Shown in pieces: positions 24,886-34,040 of a DNA stretch of 34,040 bases; position 1 is the first letter of the stretch; the number at the start of each line of letters is the position of its first letter. The stretch spans positions 1 through 34,040 of the forward strand of contig JAIEPP010000711.1 of NCBI GenBank assembly GCA_019748335.1, read 5' to 3'. The position numbers and the translations under genes were made by a program. Source of the stretch: Xanthobacteraceae bacterium. Lineage in GTDB: Bacteria; Pseudomonadota; Alphaproteobacteria; Rhizobiales; Xanthobacteraceae. Below the pieces are notes generated by a model, which did not search any database, had not been told where the DNA came from, and saw only the letters and a program-made list of their open reading frames with translations.

Positions 24886-27042
24886 ATGAACCAGGAAATC
24901 CGCCCGCGGCCAAACGGTTCGGCGGCCGGGAACGAAAAGACATTGGTTCGCCTGGCCGCGGATATCGGCGGAACATTTACCGATATCGTTCTCGAGGTCG
25001 GCGACAAGCGCCTGACCAGGAAAATCTTGACGACGGCGAAATATCCGGAATTGGGCGTCATGAACGGCGCCGGACTGGCGCTGGACGAGGCCGGCCTGAC
25101 CTACGCCGACATCGACATTTTCGTCCATGGCACGACCTTGGCGACCAACGCCGTGCTCGAGCGAAGTGGCGCGACGACGGCTCTGATCGCGACTGAAGGT
25201 TTCCGCGATGTCATCGAGATCGGTACCGAAGGACGGTTCGATCAGTATGATCTCCAGATCGAAAAGCAGGTTCCGCTGGTGCCGCGCTCGTTGCGACTGA
25301 CCGTTCGTGAACGGATCGATTCGCGCGGAAATGTTCTGGTCGAACTGGACGAGGCCGCGCTTGCCGATCACGCACGGCGCTTGGAGAAAGAAAAGATCGA
25401 GAGCATCGCCATCTGCTTCATCCACGCCTATGCGAACGGCGAGCACGAGCGGCGCGCGCGCGACATCCTTGCCGGCGCGCTCCCGAATGTCCCGATCTCG
25501 ATCTCGTCGGAAGTCTGCCCCGAAATCCGCGAATACGAGCGGACCTCCACGACGGTTGCCAACGCCTACGTCCGTCCGCAGATGGCGGATTACCTCGCGC
25601 GCATGAAATCGGCGTTGTCGCGCGTGAAATTCAAGGGGGTCATCTACCTGGTGACGTCGAACGGAGGCCTGACCTCACTGGAGACCGCGCGCCGTTTCCC
25701 GGTCCGGCTCATCGAATCCGGCCCGGCCGGCGGGGCGATATTCGCCGCCGATATTGCGGCGCGCCTTGACGAACGAAGCGTGCTGTCGTTCGACATGGGC
25801 GGAACCACCGCAAAGATGTGCCTGATCGAGAATCTGCGTCCGGACACGGACCGCGTCTACGAGGTTGACCGCGCGGCGCGCTTTCAGAAAGGCAGCGGGC
25901 TTCCCCTGCGCATCCCGGTGATCGACCTCGTCGAGATCGGCGCCGGCGGGGGCTCGATTGCCCACGTCGATTCCCTGAAGAACGTCATGGTTGGGCCGCG
26001 AAGTGCCGGATCGCAGCCGGGACCGGCCTGCTATGGGTTGGGCGGAACGCTTCCGACGGTTACCGATGCCGATGCCGTGCTTGGACTGATCGAACCCGCG
26101 GCATTTGCCGGTGGAACGGTCGAACTCGACCTTGCTGCCGCCACGACGGCGCTTGAGGACCATGTTGGACAGCCCTTGCAGATGTCCGCCGAACTGGCCG
26201 CCTATGCCGTCCACGAAATGGTCTGCGAAAGTATGGCGAGCGCCGCGCGGGTTCACGCGATCGAGAAGGGGAAGACCACGGCCAATCACACCATGATCGC
26301 ATTCGGCGGCGCCGCGCCTCTGCATGCGGCGCGCGTCGCCGAAAAGATAGGTGTCCGCCGCGTCGTGATTCCGCAGAATGCCGGCGTCGGCTCGGCGGTA
26401 GGTTTTCTCAGGGCGCCGATCTCCTACGAACTCGTGCAAAGCCGGCACGCGTTGGTGGAGACACTCGAGTACTCCGGCATCTCCGAGATGCTGCATCAAA
26501 TGGAGCGGGAAGCGCGGCTGCTGGTCGAAGAGGGGGCCGGGGACGCGCCGCTGAAGACCCGCAAGCTCGCTTTCATGCGATATGTCGGCCAAGGCCACGA
26601 GATCGCGGTCTCGATTCCCGATCGGGATCTGACGGAGAACGATCGTGAAACCCTGGCGAGGGATTTCGAAGACACCTATACGCGGTTGTTCAATCGAACC
26701 ATTCCCGGGGCCGCCAAGGAAATCCTGAGCTGGTCGGTTCTTGTCACAGCGGAGAGCGCGGATAGACTGGGTCCCATCGCGCAAGTGACGGCTGTGGAAG
26801 GGACGGCGGTGGCGCACCGGGTCCGGCGCTTCTTTGATGGACGCAAGGGGACGCATATCGAGCTGCCGCTCTTCGAGCGGGAGGCGCTCGCCGCAGGAGT
26901 CAGGATCAGCGGACCGGCTCTGATCTCGGAGCGTGAAACGACCACCTTCGTATCGGCCGCGTTCGATGCTCACATCGACCGCCACGGCAATATCGTGTTG
27001 AACCGCAATCAACCCGCCGGAAGCAAAAATGCAGCAAATTGA
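24886..27042 (+). CDS. hyuA: hydantoinase/oxoprolinase family protein, subunit A
   Basis: 718-residue HyuA-type subunit with an ASKHA-like ATP-binding fold. DIGGTFTDIV (26-35) starts the Hydant_A_N domain; HGTTLATNAVLER follows near residue 82; the Hydantoinase_A core has SNGGLTS, ESGPAGG, SFDMGGTTAKMCLIE, EIGAGGGSIA and GPACYGLGG. Enzymes of this family with HyuB cleave 5-oxoproline or N-methylhydantoin with ATP, or carboxylate ketones. ATG 24886 is preferred: the upstream 22 codons are non-conserved and a purine-rich AAGAGAATAAG precedes this ATG. It overlaps hyuB by 14 nt. Its place behind a D-glutamate-cyclase homologue favours the oxoprolinase activity, possibly on the D-isomer; this is inference. 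Confidence 0.92.
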   Translation: MNQEIRPRPNGSAAGNEKTLVRLAADIGGTFTDIVLEVGDKRLTRKILTTAKYPELGVMNGAGLALDEAGLTYADIDIFVHGTTLATNAVLERSGATTALIATEGFRDVIEIGTEGRFDQYDLQIEKQVPLVPRSLRLTVRERIDSRGNVLVELDEAALADHARRLEKEKIESIAICFIHAYANGEHERRARDILAGALPNVPISISSEVCPEIREYERTSTTVANAYVRPQMADYLARMKSALSRVKFKGVIYLVTSNGGLTSLETARRFPVRLIESGPAGGAIFAADIAARLDERSVLSFDMGGTTAKMCLIENLRPDTDRVYEVDRAARFQKGSGLPLRIPVIDLVEIGAGGGSIAHVDSLKNVMVGPRSAGSQPGPACYGLGGTLPTVTDADAVLGLIEPAAFAGGTVELDLAAATTALEDHVGQPLQMSAELAAYAVHEMVCESMASAARVHAIEKGKTTANHTMIAFGGAAPLHAARVAEKIGVRRVVIPQNAGVGSAVGFLRAPISYELVQSRHALVETLEYSGISEMLHQMEREARLLVEEGAGDAPLKTRKLAFMRYVGQGHEIAVSIPDRDLTENDRETLARDFEDTYTRLFNRTIPGAAKEILSWSVLVTAESADRLGPIAQVTAVEGTAVAHRVRRFFDGRKGTHIELPLFEREALAAGVRISGPALISERETTTFVSAAFDAHIDRHGNIVLNRNQPAGSKNAAN

Positions 27043-28684
27043 CGCAAGCGCGAGTATCGACCTCCAGGTCATGTGGCATCGATTGATCGCAATCGTCGAG
27101 GAGCAGGCTCAGGTCCTGATACGAACGGCGTTCAGTCCTATCGTGCGGGAATGCGCCGACCTTTCCGCCGGGGTCTTCGACACCAGCGGTAACATGCTGG
27201 CGCAGGCGATTACGGGTGCTCCCGGCCACGTCAACACCATGGCGGAATCGGTGCGGCATTTCATGCGTCGCTATCCGCTGCAAACGATGCAGCCGGGCGA
27301 CGTGTTCATCACCAACGATCCCTGGAAAGGAACCGGCCACCTCAACGATTTTGTGGTCGTAACGCCCTGTTTCAGGAACGGCAGGGCGGTGGCGCTGTTC
27401 TGCTGCACCAGCCACGTCATGGACATCGGTGGGCTCGGTTTCGGTCCCGACGGCTCCGACGTTTACATGGAGGGCCTTCACATTCCGATGCTCAAGTTGT
27501 TCGAGCGGGGGCAAGTCAACGAAACGTTGATGGCGATGATCTGCGGCAATACCCGCCAGGAGGTCGAGACGGAAGGGGATACCTACGCGCTTGCCGCCTG
27601 TAACGATGTCGGCGCCACGCGTTTGCTGGAAATGATGGAGGAGTTCGAGATCGACGATCTCGAGGCACTTTCTTCGCACGTGCTGTCGCGTTCGCGCGAG
27701 GCGATGATTTCGGAGATCAGCAAGTTGCCGAAAGGTACTTGGAAAAACAGCATGACGGTCGATGGTTACGATACCCCGATCGTACTGTCGGCAACGCTGA
27801 CGATCTCCGACGAGGGTATCCACGTCGATTATTCCGGTTCGTCCGCACAGTCTCCGCGGGGCATCAACGTCGCCATCAACTACACCGCAGCCTACACCAT
27901 GTTCGGGCTTGCATGTGCCATTGGCGGACGGATTCCGAACAATTCGGGTTCGCTCTCGATGTTTACGATCACCGCGCCCGAGGGGTCGGTATTGAACGCA
28001 CTGAAGCCGGCACCGGTGTCGACGCGGCATGTAATCGGGCAGATGCTCCCGGATGTGGTGTTCGGATGTCTTCGCCAGGTGGTGCCCGATCGCGTGCCGG
28101 CGGAAGGCGCCTCGTCGGTTTGGTTGATCACGATGCGCGGGGAAACCGCCGATGGGCGCTCGGGCCGTTACGGCTTTACGGTAGGCTTTACCAGCAATGG
28201 CGGCACTGGCGCGAGGAGTGGCAAGGACGGTTTGTCCGCGACCGCGTTCCCGACCAGTCTATCGGGAACGCCGGTGGAGATCGCCGAGACGCAGACGCCG
28301 TTGCTGTTCTGGCGCAAGGAACTGCGCGAAGGATCCGGCGGTGCGGGCAAGACTCGCGGCGGTCTCGGTCAGGTGCTGGAAATCGAATCGGCCTGCAACA
28401 AGCCGTTCCAGGTTCTCGCTTCCTTCGATCGTATCTCGTTCGCAGCCCGTGGCCACGAAGGTGCTGATGACGGATCGGCGGGCTTTATCGGACTGAAGTC
28501 GGGACAGAAGCTGAAGGGCAAGGGGGCTCAGGAGGTGGAAGCCGGGGAACGGCTGATCCTGATGACACCTGGCGGTGGGGGCCGGGGGAATCCGCGGTCG
28601 CGTGCACAGGAAGATGTGGCGCGCGACGTCCGGGACGGGCTGATTTCCATCGAGGTCGCCAGATCGGTGTATGGCGCGCGATAG
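27029..28684 (+). CDS. hyuB: hydantoinase/oxoprolinase family protein, subunit B
   Basis: 551-residue HyuB (Hydantoinase_B) subunit of normal stand-alone length. Landmarks are RTAFSPIVRECADLSAGVFD, GAPGHVNTM, the NDPWKGTGHLNDF motif (96-108; the NDP...H...D pattern contributes metal-binding residues in the family), CCTSHVMDIGG, and the glycine-rich end MTPGGGGRGNPR. ATG 27029 overlaps the end of hyuA by 14 nt, with GGAAG upstream, so translation is probably coupled. With HyuA it should form one ATP-dependent ring-opening or carboxylating enzyme in the cytoplasm. The NDPW-GTGHL variant differs from the NDPYRGGTHLPD wording of classical 5-oxoprolinases, so the substrate needs testing. Confidence 0.92.
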   Translation: MQQIDASASIDLQVMWHRLIAIVEEQAQVLIRTAFSPIVRECADLSAGVFDTSGNMLAQAITGAPGHVNTMAESVRHFMRRYPLQTMQPGDVFITNDPWKGTGHLNDFVVVTPCFRNGRAVALFCCTSHVMDIGGLGFGPDGSDVYMEGLHIPMLKLFERGQVNETLMAMICGNTRQEVETEGDTYALAACNDVGATRLLEMMEEFEIDDLEALSSHVLSRSREAMISEISKLPKGTWKNSMTVDGYDTPIVLSATLTISDEGIHVDYSGSSAQSPRGINVAINYTAAYTMFGLACAIGGRIPNNSGSLSMFTITAPEGSVLNALKPAPVSTRHVIGQMLPDVVFGCLRQVVPDRVPAEGASSVWLITMRGETADGRSGRYGFTVGFTSNGGTGARSGKDGLSATAFPTSLSGTPVEIAETQTPLLFWRKELREGSGGAGKTRGGLGQVLEIESACNKPFQVLASFDRISFAARGHEGADDGSAGFIGLKSGQKLKGKGAQEVEAGERLILMTPGGGGRGNPRSRAQEDVARDVRDGLISIEVARSVYGAR

Positions 28685-28692
28685 AGGCGTCG

Positions 28693-29622
28693 GTGTCGGA
28701 TCGGCTCAACGAACTCGACGTCTCGCTCCTGATGGCGCTGGACGCCCTGCTGATCGAACGTAATGTCAGTCGTGCGGCACATCGTCTTGGCATCACACAA
28801 CCGGCGCTCTCCGGTCGGCTCGGCCGGCTGCGGGTGCTATTCGACGATCGGATGTTCGTGCCGATCGCCGGTCGGGGCGTGACCCCGACACCCCGCGCGG
28901 TAGGGGTCGAGAAGAACCTGACAAAGGTCCTGGCGCAGTTGCGGGAGCTTGTCGGGCCGGAACAGGCGTTTGATCCCCAGCTGGATGAACGGACATTCGT
29001 CGTCGCCGCTTACGACAATCCGGCCGCGATGCTTGCGCCGGAATTGCTGCCGAGCTTCAAGGTTGACGCGCCGCGCGTCCGATTGGCATTCGTGTTGCCC
29101 GATCATGACAAGCTGGCGATAGAGCTGGAACGGGGTGATATCGATCTGTTTGTCGGTGTCATCAAGCACCAGCATCCTGATCTGCTGAGTCGGACGTTGT
29201 TCGAGGAGGAATGGATGACCGCCCAGCGGCGCGGACATCCCCGTGGCAGAGTGAGACCGACCCTGGACGAATTCTGTGAACTCGACCACCTTCTGATCTC
29301 GGCCGAAGGCGCCGAATTCACCGGAATGGTGGACCGGGAGCTTGCCAAACTTGGCCGGAAGCGACATGTGAGCATTTCGATACAGAGCTACGCCCTTGCT
29401 CCGCTGATGATTGCGAACAGCGATTGTCTGTGTACCCTGCCAAGGCGATTTCTGCAGCGCTTCGAGCCTCTGCTCGAGCTGTTTGAGCCGCCGCTGGAAC
29501 TCGGTCGTTTCCGTCTTCAGGCGCTCTGGCACCGTCGCATGCAGGATGATGCAGCGCACCGCTGGATCCGCGAGCGAATTTTTGCGGCGGCCGCGGCGCA
29601 GGTTTCCCAAGCGTCAATCTGA
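28693..29622 (+). CDS. LysR-family regulator, NodD/NahR-like branch (LysR3), GTG start
   Basis: 309-residue LTTR. The DNA-binding part reads LNELDVSLLMALDALLIERNVSRAAHRLGITQPALSGRLGRLRVLFDDRMFV, with LDALL-ERNVSRAA and QPALS typical of the NodD/NahR/PcpR branch rather than of LysR1 and LysR2. The effector domain continues to about residue 300. GTG 28693 is 8 bp after the hyuB stop and has GAGG 5 nt upstream; no ATG fits. It is probably cotranscribed with hyuAB. No nod-box-like sequence was recognised in the window. It may respond to an aromatic or other effector and control a promoter outside the locus, or the downstream genes. Confidence 0.9.
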   Translation: MSDRLNELDVSLLMALDALLIERNVSRAAHRLGITQPALSGRLGRLRVLFDDRMFVPIAGRGVTPTPRAVGVEKNLTKVLAQLRELVGPEQAFDPQLDERTFVVAAYDNPAAMLAPELLPSFKVDAPRVRLAFVLPDHDKLAIELERGDIDLFVGVIKHQHPDLLSRTLFEEEWMTAQRRGHPRGRVRPTLDEFCELDHLLISAEGAEFTGMVDRELAKLGRKRHVSISIQSYALAPLMIANSDCLCTLPRRFLQRFEPLLELFEPPLELGRFRLQALWHRRMQDDAAHRWIRERIFAAAAAQVSQASI

Positions 29623-29639
29623 TCGCGGGCAAGAACGGT

Positions 29640-29664
29640 GCCCGGAGTGCCTCACCGGGCTCTT
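29640..29664 (+). terminator. possible weak terminator after lysR3
   Basis: GCCCGG (29640-29645) and CCGGGC (29655-29660) form a 6-bp GC stem with a 9-nt loop followed by TCTT, 18 nt past the lysR3 stop. The T-run is poor. Confidence 0.32.
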
Positions 29665-29827
29665 CAACCCGCCGATATCAGCCATTCGTCCTATCGATTT
29701 CAACCGCGGCCGGCAGGCGCCTAAACGTCGCATTGGCTCGGCGGCAGACGCTGGCCGCAACAGGCGTCGCCACGCGGGTGAGCCGCTTGCTTCGCCTTAC
29801 CAGTCTCACAATCGAAGGTACGCCAAC

Positions 29828-30511
29828 ATGCTGAAACTTTACTTCCACTCCACGCCGAATTCGATGAAGGTGGCTCTCCTGCTCGAGGAGTTGCAGTTGC
29901 CGTTCGAGGTCCTGCCCATCGACATTATGAAGGGCGAGCAGCACCAGATCGAATTCCTGAAGATCAATCCCAATGCCAAGGTGCCCGCCGTCGAGGATGA
30001 TGGCATCCAGGTATTCGATTCGCATGCCATTCTGCTCCACCTCGCAGCCAAGCACGGGAAATACATTCCAGCCGCGCCGCAAGCGCAGGCCGCAACACTC
30101 TCCTGGCTCGAATTTGTTGCCACCGGCCTGTCAGTCTTCTCCGGTCAGGCCGTTCATTTCCTGCACTATGCCCCGGAGGCGCTGCCTTACGCCAAGAACC
30201 GGTATGTCAAGGAAGTGGAACGACACTACGGTGTCCTGGACAAACATCTCGAAGGATCGAAATATCTGGCCGGGTCCGAATACAGCATCGCCGATATGGC
30301 GCTATGGGGCTGGGCCATTTCCGCCGGCTACATTTTCGGTGAGCAGGGGCTCGCTGCCTTCCCGAACGTTCAGCGGCTGGTCACGGAAATCGGAGCAAGG
30401 CCGGCGGCCCTCAAGGCGCTCAAGCTGAAGGAGAGCACGTCCTTCAAATCGGAGCTGGATGAGCAGGCCCGTAAGGCGATGTTCCCCCAGAACGAAGGAC
30501 TAGCCGCGTAA
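29828..30511 (+). CDS. glutathione S-transferase family protein (Nu/YfcG-like)
   Basis: 227-residue cytosolic GST-fold protein. The thioredoxin-like N-terminal domain begins MLKLYFHSTPNSMKVALLLEEL, where TPN is typical of the Nu class (YfcG/YghU). NPNAKVPAVEDDG carries the cis-proline and the DSHAILLHLA segment holds the glutathione gamma-glutamyl contact (usually Glu/Asp-Ser). The helical C-terminal domain has YSIADMALWGWA. ATG 29828 has GAAGG 8 nt upstream; the frame is open further back over lysR3 but without homology. It may be disulfide reductase-like, as in YfcG. A gap of 205 bp from lysR3 and a possible weak terminator suggest its own promoter. It could link the locus to gamma-glutamyl thiols, but its role here is uncertain. 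Confidence 0.9.
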   Translation: MLKLYFHSTPNSMKVALLLEELQLPFEVLPIDIMKGEQHQIEFLKINPNAKVPAVEDDGIQVFDSHAILLHLAAKHGKYIPAAPQAQAATLSWLEFVATGLSVFSGQAVHFLHYAPEALPYAKNRYVKEVERHYGVLDKHLEGSKYLAGSEYSIADMALWGWAISAGYIFGEQGLAAFPNVQRLVTEIGARPAALKALKLKESTSFKSELDEQARKAMFPQNEGLAA

Positions 30512-30533
30512 GAAGCGCGCCGCTTCACTTCGA

Positions 30534-30561
30534 GCGGAGACCGGGCATGCCCGGCCTCCGC
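30534..30561. terminator. hairpin between converging gst and M20 genes
   Basis: GCGGAG-A-CCGGGC (30534-30546) pairs with GCCCGG-C-CTCCGC (30549-30561): 12 pairs with one mismatch and a very short centre. It lies between converging stops at 30511 and 30602 and could end both transcripts, although neither side has a T-run. Confidence 0.42.
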
Positions 30562-30601
30562 CGCATGGCCATCGGGCCTCCGCTATTACCGACTTGGCAG
30601 T

Positions 30602-31765
30602 TTAGCCCGGCAGCCGGTTCCGGACGATCTCGCTCCACAGCGACATGCCAAAGGGCAGCACGTCGTCGTTGAAATTATAGGCCGGGTGGTGGAGCGACTC
30701 CGAGTCTCCATTTCCGATCAGGATGAACGCCCCCGGGCGCTCCAGCAGGAATTCTGCGAAGTCTTCCGATCCCATCTGCGGAGCGATATTGGTGTCGACA
30801 TGTTCCTCACCGACGAGTTGAGCGGCAGCTTCCGCAAAATAGCCGCTGCAGCCAGCCTCATTTACCATTGCCGGTATCGTGTGCCTGTAGGTGACCATTG
30901 CCCTTGCACCGTATGAGTGGGCCGTCGCCTCTGCGATCATGCGCATTCGTCCTTCGCAGAACTTGCTCGCTGCCGCAGTCAGGGTTCGAACCGATCCGGA
31001 CAGGCGACCGAACTGCGGAATGACGTTATCAGCCTCGCCGGCGTGTATCTGGCAAGCGGAAATGACGACGGCGTCCCTTGGGTCGACATTTCTGGCGACG
31101 ATCGTCTGCAGCGCATTCACGATGGCAGCCAGAACAACGACCGTGTCGACGGCCTTGTCCGGCGTGGCGGCGTGACCGCCCTTTCCCTCGATCTCGATCG
31201 TGAACGAGTCGAACGCCGCCATAATCGAGCCGGTCCGTATAGCGAAGCTGCCAACCGGAATACCCGGCCAGTTGTGCATACCGTAGATCTCGTCGATGCC
31301 GAAGCGCTTCATCAAACCATCGTCGATCATCGCGCGGGCACCACCGGCGCCACCTTCCTCCGCCGGTTGAAACACGAGGATGACCGTCCCCGAAAAGTCT
31401 CGGACTTCGGCGAGGTATCTTGCGGCCCCCAGCAGCATCGAGCTGTGTCCGTCGTGGCCGCAGGCATGCATCAGGCCCGGGACGCGCGATCGATAGGGCA
31501 GATTCGTTTGCTCCGTGATCGGGAGGGCGTCCATGTCCGCGCGCAGGCCGACCGTCCGGCTGCCGGCCGTGCCGCGGCCTTTGATGATGCCGACGACGCC
31601 GGTTCGTCCCAATCCCTCGATAACATCGTCGCAACCGAACTCGCGAAGACGTTGCGCCACGAAGGCCGCGGTGTTCTGGACGTCAAACTCCAATTCCGGA
31701 TTTTCGTGCAGATGATGCCGCCATGAGATGACGTCCGGCAATAGCTCAGAAATGCGCTCCAGCAT
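30602..31765 (-). CDS. M20-family amidohydrolase (HipO/IAA-amino-acid hydrolase-like)
   Basis: 387-residue M20D metallohydrolase that would cleave an N-acyl amino acid or similar amide. Metal-site residues are visible: Cys102, His104 and Asp105 in HACGHDGH, Glu136-Glu137 in PAEEGGAGG, His164 in YGMHNWPG and a late His in SLHHPAYNFND. A dimerisation domain (FTIEIEGKGGHAATPD, GEADNVIPQ, GSVRTL) is inserted in the middle. The RHHLHENPELEF start and the length are typical. ATG 31765 has GGAG 8 nt upstream. It is transcribed toward the gst gene and divergently from the M19 gene. An intrinsic terminator-like hairpin lies in its upstream region, 76 nt before the ATG. It probably deacylates an intermediate in the same pathway, but could act on plant-derived conjugates. 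Confidence 0.92.
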   Translation of the reverse strand: MLERISELLPDVISWRHHLHENPELEFDVQNTAAFVAQRLREFGCDDVIEGLGRTGVVGIIKGRGTAGSRTVGLRADMDALPITEQTNLPYRSRVPGLMHACGHDGHSSMLLGAARYLAEVRDFSGTVILVFQPAEEGGAGGARAMIDDGLMKRFGIDEIYGMHNWPGIPVGSFAIRTGSIMAAFDSFTIEIEGKGGHAATPDKAVDTVVVLAAIVNALQTIVARNVDPRDAVVISACQIHAGEADNVIPQFGRLSGSVRTLTAAASKFCEGRMRMIAEATAHSYGARAMVTYRHTIPAMVNEAGCSGYFAEAAAQLVGEEHVDTNIAPQMGSEDFAEFLLERPGAFILIGNGDSESLHHPAYNFNDDVLPFGMSLWSEIVRNRLPG

Positions 31766-32181
31766 CGATCTGTCTCCAGGAAAGCTGGCCGTAGCACCCC
31801 CCCAAGGAAGCGCGACCGCTTCGCAGTTCCGGCCATTGGTAAAAAGGGACCACCGACCGAAGGTCGGTGGTCCGAGTCTTGGGAGGAAACGCAGATGCCG
31901 TCCCTATCAAGAAAGGCATGAGCGGCACTGGCTTAGCATCCCAGGCGGAACTGACCAGCGCAGAATGGAGAACGGACCGATGCCAGCCGCGCAACGGCGG
32001 GTGAAAACCGGGATCAGGCTGCACTGCTGCCGATCGGAGTCTGGCCAACGACAAGTCTCGGTGACCGGCTCCGAAGTTGGCATTGCCATGGCGGCAACGC
32101 CCCGCCGCCGAAATTGTGCTTTTCATGCGTTCGCGCGTGGGCAAAGTGATCGGATGGTCCGCCAACCCCACATGGTTTCTA
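31766..32181. promoter_or_regulatory. divergent region of the M20 and M19 genes
   Basis: 416 bp without a convincing gene. It holds a strong minus-strand terminator-like hairpin (31841-31873) and a small hairpin GAAGCG-CGAC-CGCTTC (31807-31822). There is a run of seven C (31797-31803). GATGCC and GGCAT half-sites lie 15 bp apart (31894-31919). A 205-codon minus-strand open frame spans the gap but overlaps both neighbouring genes and resembles nothing I know. Confidence 0.5.
31841..31873 (-). terminator. intrinsic terminator-like hairpin upstream of the M20 gene
   Basis: GGACCACCGACC (31847-31858) and GGTCGGTGGTCC (31862-31873) form a perfect 12-bp stem with a GAA loop. AAAAA at 31841-31845 gives a TTTTT tail on the minus strand. 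No gene on that strand ends just before it; it lies 76 nt before the M20 start codon. It may end an unannotated small RNA or act as an attenuator in the M20 leader. Confidence 0.7.
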
Positions 32182-33243
32182 ATGCATAACGCAATCCCGG
32201 TCTTTGACGGCCACAACGACGTCCTCCTGAGGCTCTTGAAGTCGACGTCGGGTGATCCGGTCTCGGACTTTCTCCAAGGCGAGGAGCGGGGACATATCGA
32301 TCTGAAAAAGGCAAAGGCTGGGTCGCTGGTAGGAGGCCTGTTCGCGCTGTATTCGCCGTCCACGTCCGAACCGCTTGCGTTTTCCCGTCAAATGGCCGGC
32401 GGACAATACAAGCTGCCGTTGCCGCCTCGTCTGAGTCTTGAGGAGGCAAGAAATCCGATCCTCTCGATGCTGGCGACGCTGCTGAAGATCGAGAGATCGT
32501 CGCTCGGAGGCGTGGCGATCTGTCGGACCGTCAAGGAAATCAGGTCGACGATCGCGCGTGGCGCGCTCGCCGTGGTGCTGCATATCGAGGGCGCCGACGC
32601 GATCGATGCGAATCTCGATCTGCTTGAGCTTCTCTATGCGGCCGGTTTGCGTTCGCTCGGGCCGGTCTGGAGTCGGGACAATATCTTTGGCCACGGCGTT
32701 CCCTTTCATTTCCCTTCGGGGCCGGATATCGGCGAAGGCTTGACGGCCGATGGCGAGCGACTTGTCAAAGTCTGCAACGACAAGCGTATCCTGGTCGATC
32801 TGTCGCACATCACCGAGAAGGGATTTTGGGATGTCGCCCGTCTCAGCCATGCTCCCTTGGTCGCCACCCATTCCAATGCCCATGCGCTGTGCCCATCACC
32901 CCGAAATCTCACCGATAAGCAGCTCGCGGCGATCAGGGAGACCAAGGGCATCGCCGGCTTGAATTTCGCGACGTGTTTTCTGAGACCGGATGGCAGCATG
33001 CGGCCCGATACCGAGGTCGACTTGATGGTCAGGCAAATCGATTATCTGATCGAAAAGCTCGGAGAGGACCACGTCGGATTGGGCTCGGATTTCGACGGTG
33101 CTGTCGTGCCGGAGGCGATTGGTTCGGCCGCCGGCCTGCAGGTCCTGTTCGAGGCATTACGAAAGCGCGGCTACACCGATCCGTTGTTGCGAAAAATCGG
33201 CTCGGAAAACTGGCTGGCCGTTCTGGAAAGAACCATCGGCTGA
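32182..33243 (+). CDS. M19-family membrane dipeptidase (renal dipeptidase-like)
   Basis: 353-residue zinc dipeptidase of the amidohydrolase superfamily. Ligands line up with the human enzyme: His11 and Asp13 (FDGHND), bridging Glu136 (LHIEGADA), His209 (VDLSHI), His230 (VATHSNAHAL), with the same 73- and 21-residue spacings, plus the GLGSDFDG motif near 300-306. These enzymes split dipeptides, including ones with a C-terminal D-residue, and some act on L-Cys-Gly or D-amino-acid dipeptides. No signal peptide or anchor is seen, so it is cytoplasmic in spite of the family name. ATG 32182 (MHNAIPVFDGHND) is where homology begins; no strong ribosome site is visible, and in-frame starts at 32077 (TTG) and 32125 remain possible. 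It fits a role in breaking imported dipeptides. Confidence 0.9.
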   Translation: MHNAIPVFDGHNDVLLRLLKSTSGDPVSDFLQGEERGHIDLKKAKAGSLVGGLFALYSPSTSEPLAFSRQMAGGQYKLPLPPRLSLEEARNPILSMLATLLKIERSSLGGVAICRTVKEIRSTIARGALAVVLHIEGADAIDANLDLLELLYAAGLRSLGPVWSRDNIFGHGVPFHFPSGPDIGEGLTADGERLVKVCNDKRILVDLSHITEKGFWDVARLSHAPLVATHSNAHALCPSPRNLTDKQLAAIRETKGIAGLNFATCFLRPDGSMRPDTEVDLMVRQIDYLIEKLGEDHVGLGSDFDGAVVPEAIGSAAGLQVLFEALRKRGYTDPLLRKIGSENWLAVLERTIG

Positions 33244-33252
33244 TCCGTATCC

Positions 33253-33286
33253 GATCACCAAAGCCCGGTGATCAGGCCATTTTATT
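33253..33286 (+). terminator. probable terminator after the M19 gene
   Basis: GATCACC (33253-33259) and GGTGATC (33267-33273) form a 7-bp stem with a 7-nt loop, followed after AGGCCA by TTTTATT (33280-33286). It starts 9 nt past the M19 stop codon. Confidence 0.45.
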
Positions 33287-33345
33287 CCATCGTTCGCGCT
33301 GACCGTCGGATGTCCGGCGTTCGCCCTCAATCCCGAGTCCGTGAC

Positions 33346-34040
33346 ATGACCAAAACCCTTGCCGGCGACTTTGACTACGTGGTGGTCGGTGCCGGTACCG
33401 CTGGCTGCATCGTGGCCAACCGCCTTTCCGCCGATCCCAAATCCCGGGTTCTGCTGCTCGAGGCCGGCGGCATGGACAACTGGATCTGGTTCCACATCCC
33501 GGTCGGTTATCTCTTCACGATTGGTAATCCGCGCGCAGACTGGATGTTCAAGACCGAAGCCGAGCCGGGACTGAACGGTCGTGCGCTGGCTTACCCCCGG
33601 GGCAAGGTCGTGGGAGGGTCGTCATCGATCAATGCGATGATTTCGATGCGGGGCCAAGCTGGTGATTATGACGGCTGGCGGCAGCTCGGACTGGCGGGTT
33701 GGGGCTGGTCCGACATCTTGCCGATGTTCCAAAGGCTGGAAGATCATTTTCTGGGGGAGAGCGAATTTCATGGCGTAGGCGGCGGCTGGCGTATCGAAGC
33801 GCCACGCGTCTCCTGGCCGGTTCTTGACGCGGTAGCCGAGGCTGCCACGGAGATGGGCATACCCGCCCAAGCCGACTTCAACACCGGAGACAACGAGGGC
33901 GTAGGCTACTTTCACGTCAATCAGAAGCGTGGCCGGCGCTGGTCTTCGGCCCGCGGCTTCCTGAAGCTCGTTCTGTCCAGGAAAAACCTTCAACTGGAAA
34001 CCGGCGTGCTCGCGCATCGCTTGATCATCGAGGACGGGCG
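33346..34040 (+). CDS. GMC-family oxidoreductase (choline dehydrogenase-like), N-terminal part
   Basis: FAD-dependent alcohol oxidoreductase cut by the window end after about 231 codons of an expected 530-560. The dinucleotide-binding motif YVVVGAGTAGCIVANRLS is at residues 11-28, followed by VLLLEAGG. The GMC signature 1 region reads YPRGKVVGGSSSINAM, and DYDGWRQLGLAGWGW follows as in BetA/AlkJ-type proteins. ATG 33346 is taken as start; an in-frame ATG at 33310 would add 12 residues and cannot be excluded, as neither has a strong ribosome site. Members oxidise choline, alkanols or polyethylene-glycol-like alcohols. The substrate is unknown and the link to the peptide locus is only adjacency. 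Confidence 0.9.
   Translation, partial: MTKTLAGDFDYVVVGAGTAGCIVANRLSADPKSRVLLLEAGGMDNWIWFHIPVGYLFTIGNPRADWMFKTEAEPGLNGRALAYPRGKVVGGSSSINAMISMRGQAGDYDGWRQLGLAGWGWSDILPMFQRLEDHFLGESEFHGVGGGWRIEAPRVSWPVLDAVAEAATEMGIPAQADFNTGDNEGVGYFHVNQKRGRRWSSARGFLKLVLSRKNLQLETGVLAHRLIIEDG

Follow-up and report, generated by a model that had tools for sequence, protein, structure and literature searches.

Which transcript ends at a strong terminator hairpin that has no gene in front of it? An earlier note had described such a hairpin on the minus strand of the window (the whole stretch of 34,040 nucleotides analysed here) at 31841-31873. The perfect 12-bp stem, the GAA loop and the five-T tail, 76 nt from the start codon of an M20 peptidase gene (31765), are present exactly as described. 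Inspection of the open reading frames and Pfam searches found no convincing minus-strand gene ending before the hairpin, as the note had held: the minus-strand frames there are antisense or without a family, and a 60-aa ORF at 32089-31907 has no Pfam match. The gene to the right, for an M19 dipeptidase, indeed runs the opposite way. We argue here that the hairpin is very probably the 3′-end of a minus-strand gene, at about 31925-31841, for a divergent trans-acting sRNA of the αR8 type (suhB/MmgR/SisA), a kind of sRNA widespread in alphaproteobacteria. The features are collected in Table 1.

Table 1. Positions of the features discussed, in window coordinates.
Feature	Position	Strand	Evidence
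M20 peptidase/amidohydrolase gene, downstream of the sRNA	30602..31765	-	PF01546 (E 2e-47), PF07687
CTTGGGGGGG, M20 leader, candidate pairing site for core TCCTCCCAAG	31797..31806	-	10 contiguous pairs including 2 G-U
Predicted αR8-like sRNA, about 85 nt, 5′ end inferred	31841..31925	-	RF00519 31.1 bits; R1 38.7 bits; fold
Terminator tail CTTTTT, presumed Hfq-binding U tail	31841..31846	-	sequence; Hfq binding inferred from αR8 family
Intrinsic terminator stem-loop, 12 bp, loop TTC	31847..31873	-	inverted repeat, scan, resamples, covarying homologous stem
Family core TTTCCTCCCAAGACT, anti-Shine-Dalgarno type, predicted single-stranded	31875..31889	-	TTTCCTCCCNAGACT twice in bin, reversed control 0
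Predicted 5′ hairpin, GCG end just before core	31890..31924	-	alone -14.5 kcal/mol, z -3.2, 2/200 shuffles as good
Possible -10-like TGCTAAG, weak	31932..31938	-	by eye; fits TGnTA extended -10
M19 membrane dipeptidase gene, divergent, start perhaps further upstream	32185..33243	+	PF01244 (E 8e-89)

In an inverted-repeat check, the arms of the hairpin (31847-31858 and 31862-31873) form 12 of 12 pairs, with 100% complementarity, around a 3-nt loop that reads GAA on the plus strand and TTC on the minus strand. After the stem, the minus strand reads C (31846) and then five T (31845-31841). The plus strand continues with GAGTC and has no T run there; the hairpin is therefore not a plus-strand terminator. 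It ranks first among the terminator-like sites that a scan found in 26000-34040. This hairpin is the single case in the window of a stem of 12 or more pairs with five or more T, and 60 first-order Markov resamples of the window contain none; chance is a very unlikely origin for it. The stem also covaries across 37 aligned matches, with 95.9% of cells paired (slid controls, at most 58%) and two-sided changes in six of eight pairs, a result that supports the stem only, the alignment being fitted to the model and the sequences being related. Br-REP elements are common in Bradyrhizobium (PMC5082802), but that the hairpin is a dispersed palindromic repeat of this sort, or a chance structure, is scarcely conceivable given its asymmetric T tail, the family core adjoining it and a chance expectation of about zero. 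A REP-like repeat is refuted by the 6.47-Mb genome bin, where the hairpin occurs just this once.

The stem is immediately preceded, on its 5′ side, by GCGUUUCCUCCCAAGACU, the core that marks the αR8 sRNA family (Rfam RF00519 suhB; MmgR, SisA-D). The first reading had missed this diagnostic UUUCCUCCCAAGACU core adjoining the stem. In a sensitive search of 31740-32260, RF00519 (suhB/mmgR) matched the minus strand at 31905-31834 over its full length (1-77), with E 1.4e-4; the score falls below the gathering score of 41, a cut-off of the database rather than a structural trait. The alignment is carried by GCGUUUCCUCCCAAGACU, next to the stem on its 5′ side, and by the stem itself. At gathering score no Rfam family was found in the window, riboswitches and known leader elements included. 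A plus-strand match to IMES-4 falls well short of its cut-off and is accounted for by this hairpin.

Independent evidence comes from a covariance model (R1) built from 26 diverse relatives with the window sequence left out; the relatives were gathered from other genomes, except L074, which is a copy in the same bin. In the window, R1 finds the site at E 2.3e-9, and the next match scores 11 bits. Across the whole bin the site comes third (E 4.3e-7), below copies on contigs C699 (82.1 bits) and C608 (47.0) and above one on C681 (32.7). Bare terminators in the bin score at most about 19 bits, so that the core supplies much of the R1 evidence. The model aligns at positions 19-69 only, over 31892-31842; the sequence of the canonical 5′ hairpin does not occur there. 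The core pattern has its other occurrence in the bin at the canonical suhB copy on C699. At the site the core matches nine of the ten bases of the canonical 10-mer (UUUCCUCCCA vs. UUUCCUCCCU), the one change being U10 to A, and continues into the conserved AGACU. The site is an additional copy of a known kind of regulator, not a new kind. The earlier note had considered a small RNA from 31874-32180 of the minus strand: the RF00519 and R1 matches support the sRNA, but its likely extent is shorter and reaches through the hairpin.

The predicted fold is consistent with this identification. Known αR8 RNAs consist of a weak 5′ hairpin, a single-stranded UUUCCUCCCU and a terminator (PMC12559287). 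Here, the sequence 31925-31841 folds at -39.3 kcal/mol (z -6.0, with 0 of 200 shuffles as good), and in the predicted structure a 5′ hairpin (31924-31890) with GCG at its end comes first, UUUCCUCCCAAGACUCG follows as a single strand, and the terminator comes last. The Rho-independent terminator at the 3′ end is present, as is a predicted hairpin upstream of the 10-mer. In sequence, the 5′ hairpin is unlike the canonical GCCCUCCUUGGGC hairpin, to which it cannot be aligned. Upstream of the predicted sRNA a consensus scan found no sigma-70 site, and no convincing -35 was found near TGCTAAG. It should be noted that a TGnTA extended -10 has been reported for B. japonicum, where most mapped starts are without a recognised promoter (PMC4842269). 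On the minus strand, the 45 bp at 31925-31969 are 85% identical to a coding part of a flavoprotein monooxygenase gene in L039, of the same genus (LHSALVSSAWDAKPVPL vs. FHSAPVIRLGDAKPVHL); the segment directly upstream of the sRNA is possibly a relic of such a gene.

How isolated is the copy? A DNA search of 148 other genomes of the genus found no orthologous locus, and an exact 17-mer search of 272 found none either. M20 relatives are at most 59% identical, and no αR8-type element was found near M20 relatives (0 of about 110 loci). Since no relative of the locus was found and none of these M20 loci has the element, the site is, on the genomes compared, a lone copy in an accessory region. Plasmid homologs match in the M20 coding part only. 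The bin consists of 711 contigs and is 80.7% complete, and the other genes of the window contig share only about 66% identity with their relatives in the genus, so the contig may be misbinned; the identification of the sRNA is independent of the binning.

Because no orthologous locus was found that could show purifying selection, the copy might be decaying or unexpressed. A vestige of an αR8 copy, untranscribed or without targets amid decaying intergenic DNA, would fit a site that is divergent and alone in its genus, with a stretch resembling a gene fragment next to it and no strong promoter. Yet the terminator is perfect, the T tail is intact, and the core is intact but for one base; these are the parts that one would expect neutral decay to damage first. 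We consider a vestige unlikely, and the divergent αR8 copy is probably functional.

To our knowledge, MmgR and SisA are the only αR8 sRNAs that have been studied functionally. The scheme that we propose joins what was computed (the hairpin, the core, the family similarity, the Hfq gene of the bin and the sibling copies) with three steps carried over from the family: transcription, Hfq binding and repression by pairing. By that analogy, the transcript would begin immediately upstream of the weak 5′ hairpin and end at the U tail. Through its single-stranded UUUCCUCCCAAG core it would base-pair with mRNAs at their G/A-rich ribosome-binding regions, probably on Hfq. The pairing would lower the translation of these mRNAs, as in the case of SisA, which represses its targets through base pairing on Hfq (PMC12559287).

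One candidate target lies close by. The M20 leader CUUGGGGGGG (31806-31797) and the core UCCUCCCAAG give the best contiguous pairing among 22 gene starts, some of them approximate. In a contiguous-pair test, which was post hoc, the pairing was equalled by 0.16% of 75-mers drawn at random from the window and by 1.1% of shuffled cores. The pairing site is 32-41 nt upstream of the M20 start codon and off the Shine-Dalgarno sequence. A canonical core, with U for the first A, would break the helix. It is plausible that M20 mRNA is an extra target of the predicted sRNA, as a post hoc lead only. A stronger version would have the copy specialised: the U to A change in the core makes a 10-nt match to the M20 leader 35 nt downstream, and the sRNA would be a dedicated local regulator of M20, or M20 read-through would be tied to sRNA level, instead of the RNA being a general αR8 sibling. 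This we regard as doubtful.

The M20 gene also enters the other reading offered by the earlier note, a long leader of the M20 mRNA in which the hairpin acts as a conditional terminator; the short RNA would then be only the attenuated product. M20 is on the same strand and only 76 nt away, no obvious promoter lies between it and the hairpin, and within a read-through transcript CTTGGGGGGG pairs with the core. The second hairpin that the note saw in this interval (GAAGCG-GTCG-CGCTTC, 31822-31807) and the G7 run (31803-31797, minus strand) are both there. An antiterminator is harder to find: the best upstream alternative partner of the 5′ arm of the terminator reaches -15.3 kcal/mol where the terminator itself has -25.0, and shuffling the upstream sequence gives as good a partner in 19% of cases. 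Nor does the helix between core and G run compete with the terminator, whose arms it does not overlap and after whose synthesis alone it can form. Moreover, αR8-type elements recur without an M20 gene and, as described above, are absent around its relatives. With no upstream antiterminator better than chance and an element that recurs elsewhere, a conditional leader is not supported, and we judge it improbable; some read-through into M20 may occur.

The αR8 reading also places the site among known siblings. With RF00519 suhB and MmgR of Sinorhizobium meliloti it shares the core UUUCCUCCC-AGACU, the terminator directly after and a hairpin before it, the intergenic location and the multi-copy habit. 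It differs in its sub-gathering score, in the U to A change after CCUCCC, in its 5′ hairpin sequence and in having no FGase neighbour. FGase linkage is typical of the single or canonical copy only, and the neighbours here are M20 and M19; the Caulobacter paralogs are likewise without it (PMC12559287). Those paralogs, SisA-D of Caulobacter crescentus, resemble the present case in being dispersed siblings with unrelated loci and promoters and a common anti-Shine-Dalgarno core (PMC12559287). SisA-D are, however, expressed, and SisA represses mRNAs on Hfq, whereas the window copy is known from sequence alone. The suhB sRNA is multi-copy, with five copies in B. japonicum (PMC1273637).

The bin has a canonical αR8 copy, two further copies and an Hfq gene, and the canonical copy (C699) sits between an FGase gene and a gene of the inositol-phosphatase family, as described for the family. 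In the genus, all 61 of the sampled genomes carry αR8 matches, 1-12 each at E <= 1e-4. Copies in the genus at L112 and L114, before a gene for a small secreted-protein-like product, have GCGTTTCCTCCCAAGACT with the CCCAAG variant seen at the site and then a terminator; they differ from the site in terminator sequence and setting, and are nearer to the canonical family (L112, 60.5 bits). As this divergent copy below the cut-off shows, annotation pipelines count too few siblings in Bradyrhizobium-type genomes, and the window copy offers a case on which sibling-specific targeting could be tested.

Some observations on the surroundings and on the genus may be added. The window contig (G000:C702) appears to be an island of peptide and amide catabolism, with oligopeptide ABC transporters, M20, M19 and gamma-glutamyltransferase-like, hydantoinase A/B-like and M24-like genes, along with three LysR regulators; most of the gene names were given by eye. 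Its tested genes share only about 57-67% identity with their nearest counterparts in the genus. In G010, G013, G053, G073 and others of the genus, as many as 12 αR8-like copies were seen in a genome (E <= 1e-4), many at about 27-41 bits, below the Rfam cut-off. At L112:596-720 and L114:4166-4290, the αR8-like core and terminator lie in the apparent 5′ leader of the secreted-protein-like gene, which has a strong AAGGAGG site; in L114 the core occurs twice, in tandem. The same block is found at L115 and L124-L126 without that gene, as if dispersed. Finally, in L097, L099, L105, L111, L116, L122 and L123, αR8-like elements follow the apparent end of one conserved gene (ending GCGGCCTGA), and are possibly 3′-UTR-derived sRNAs.
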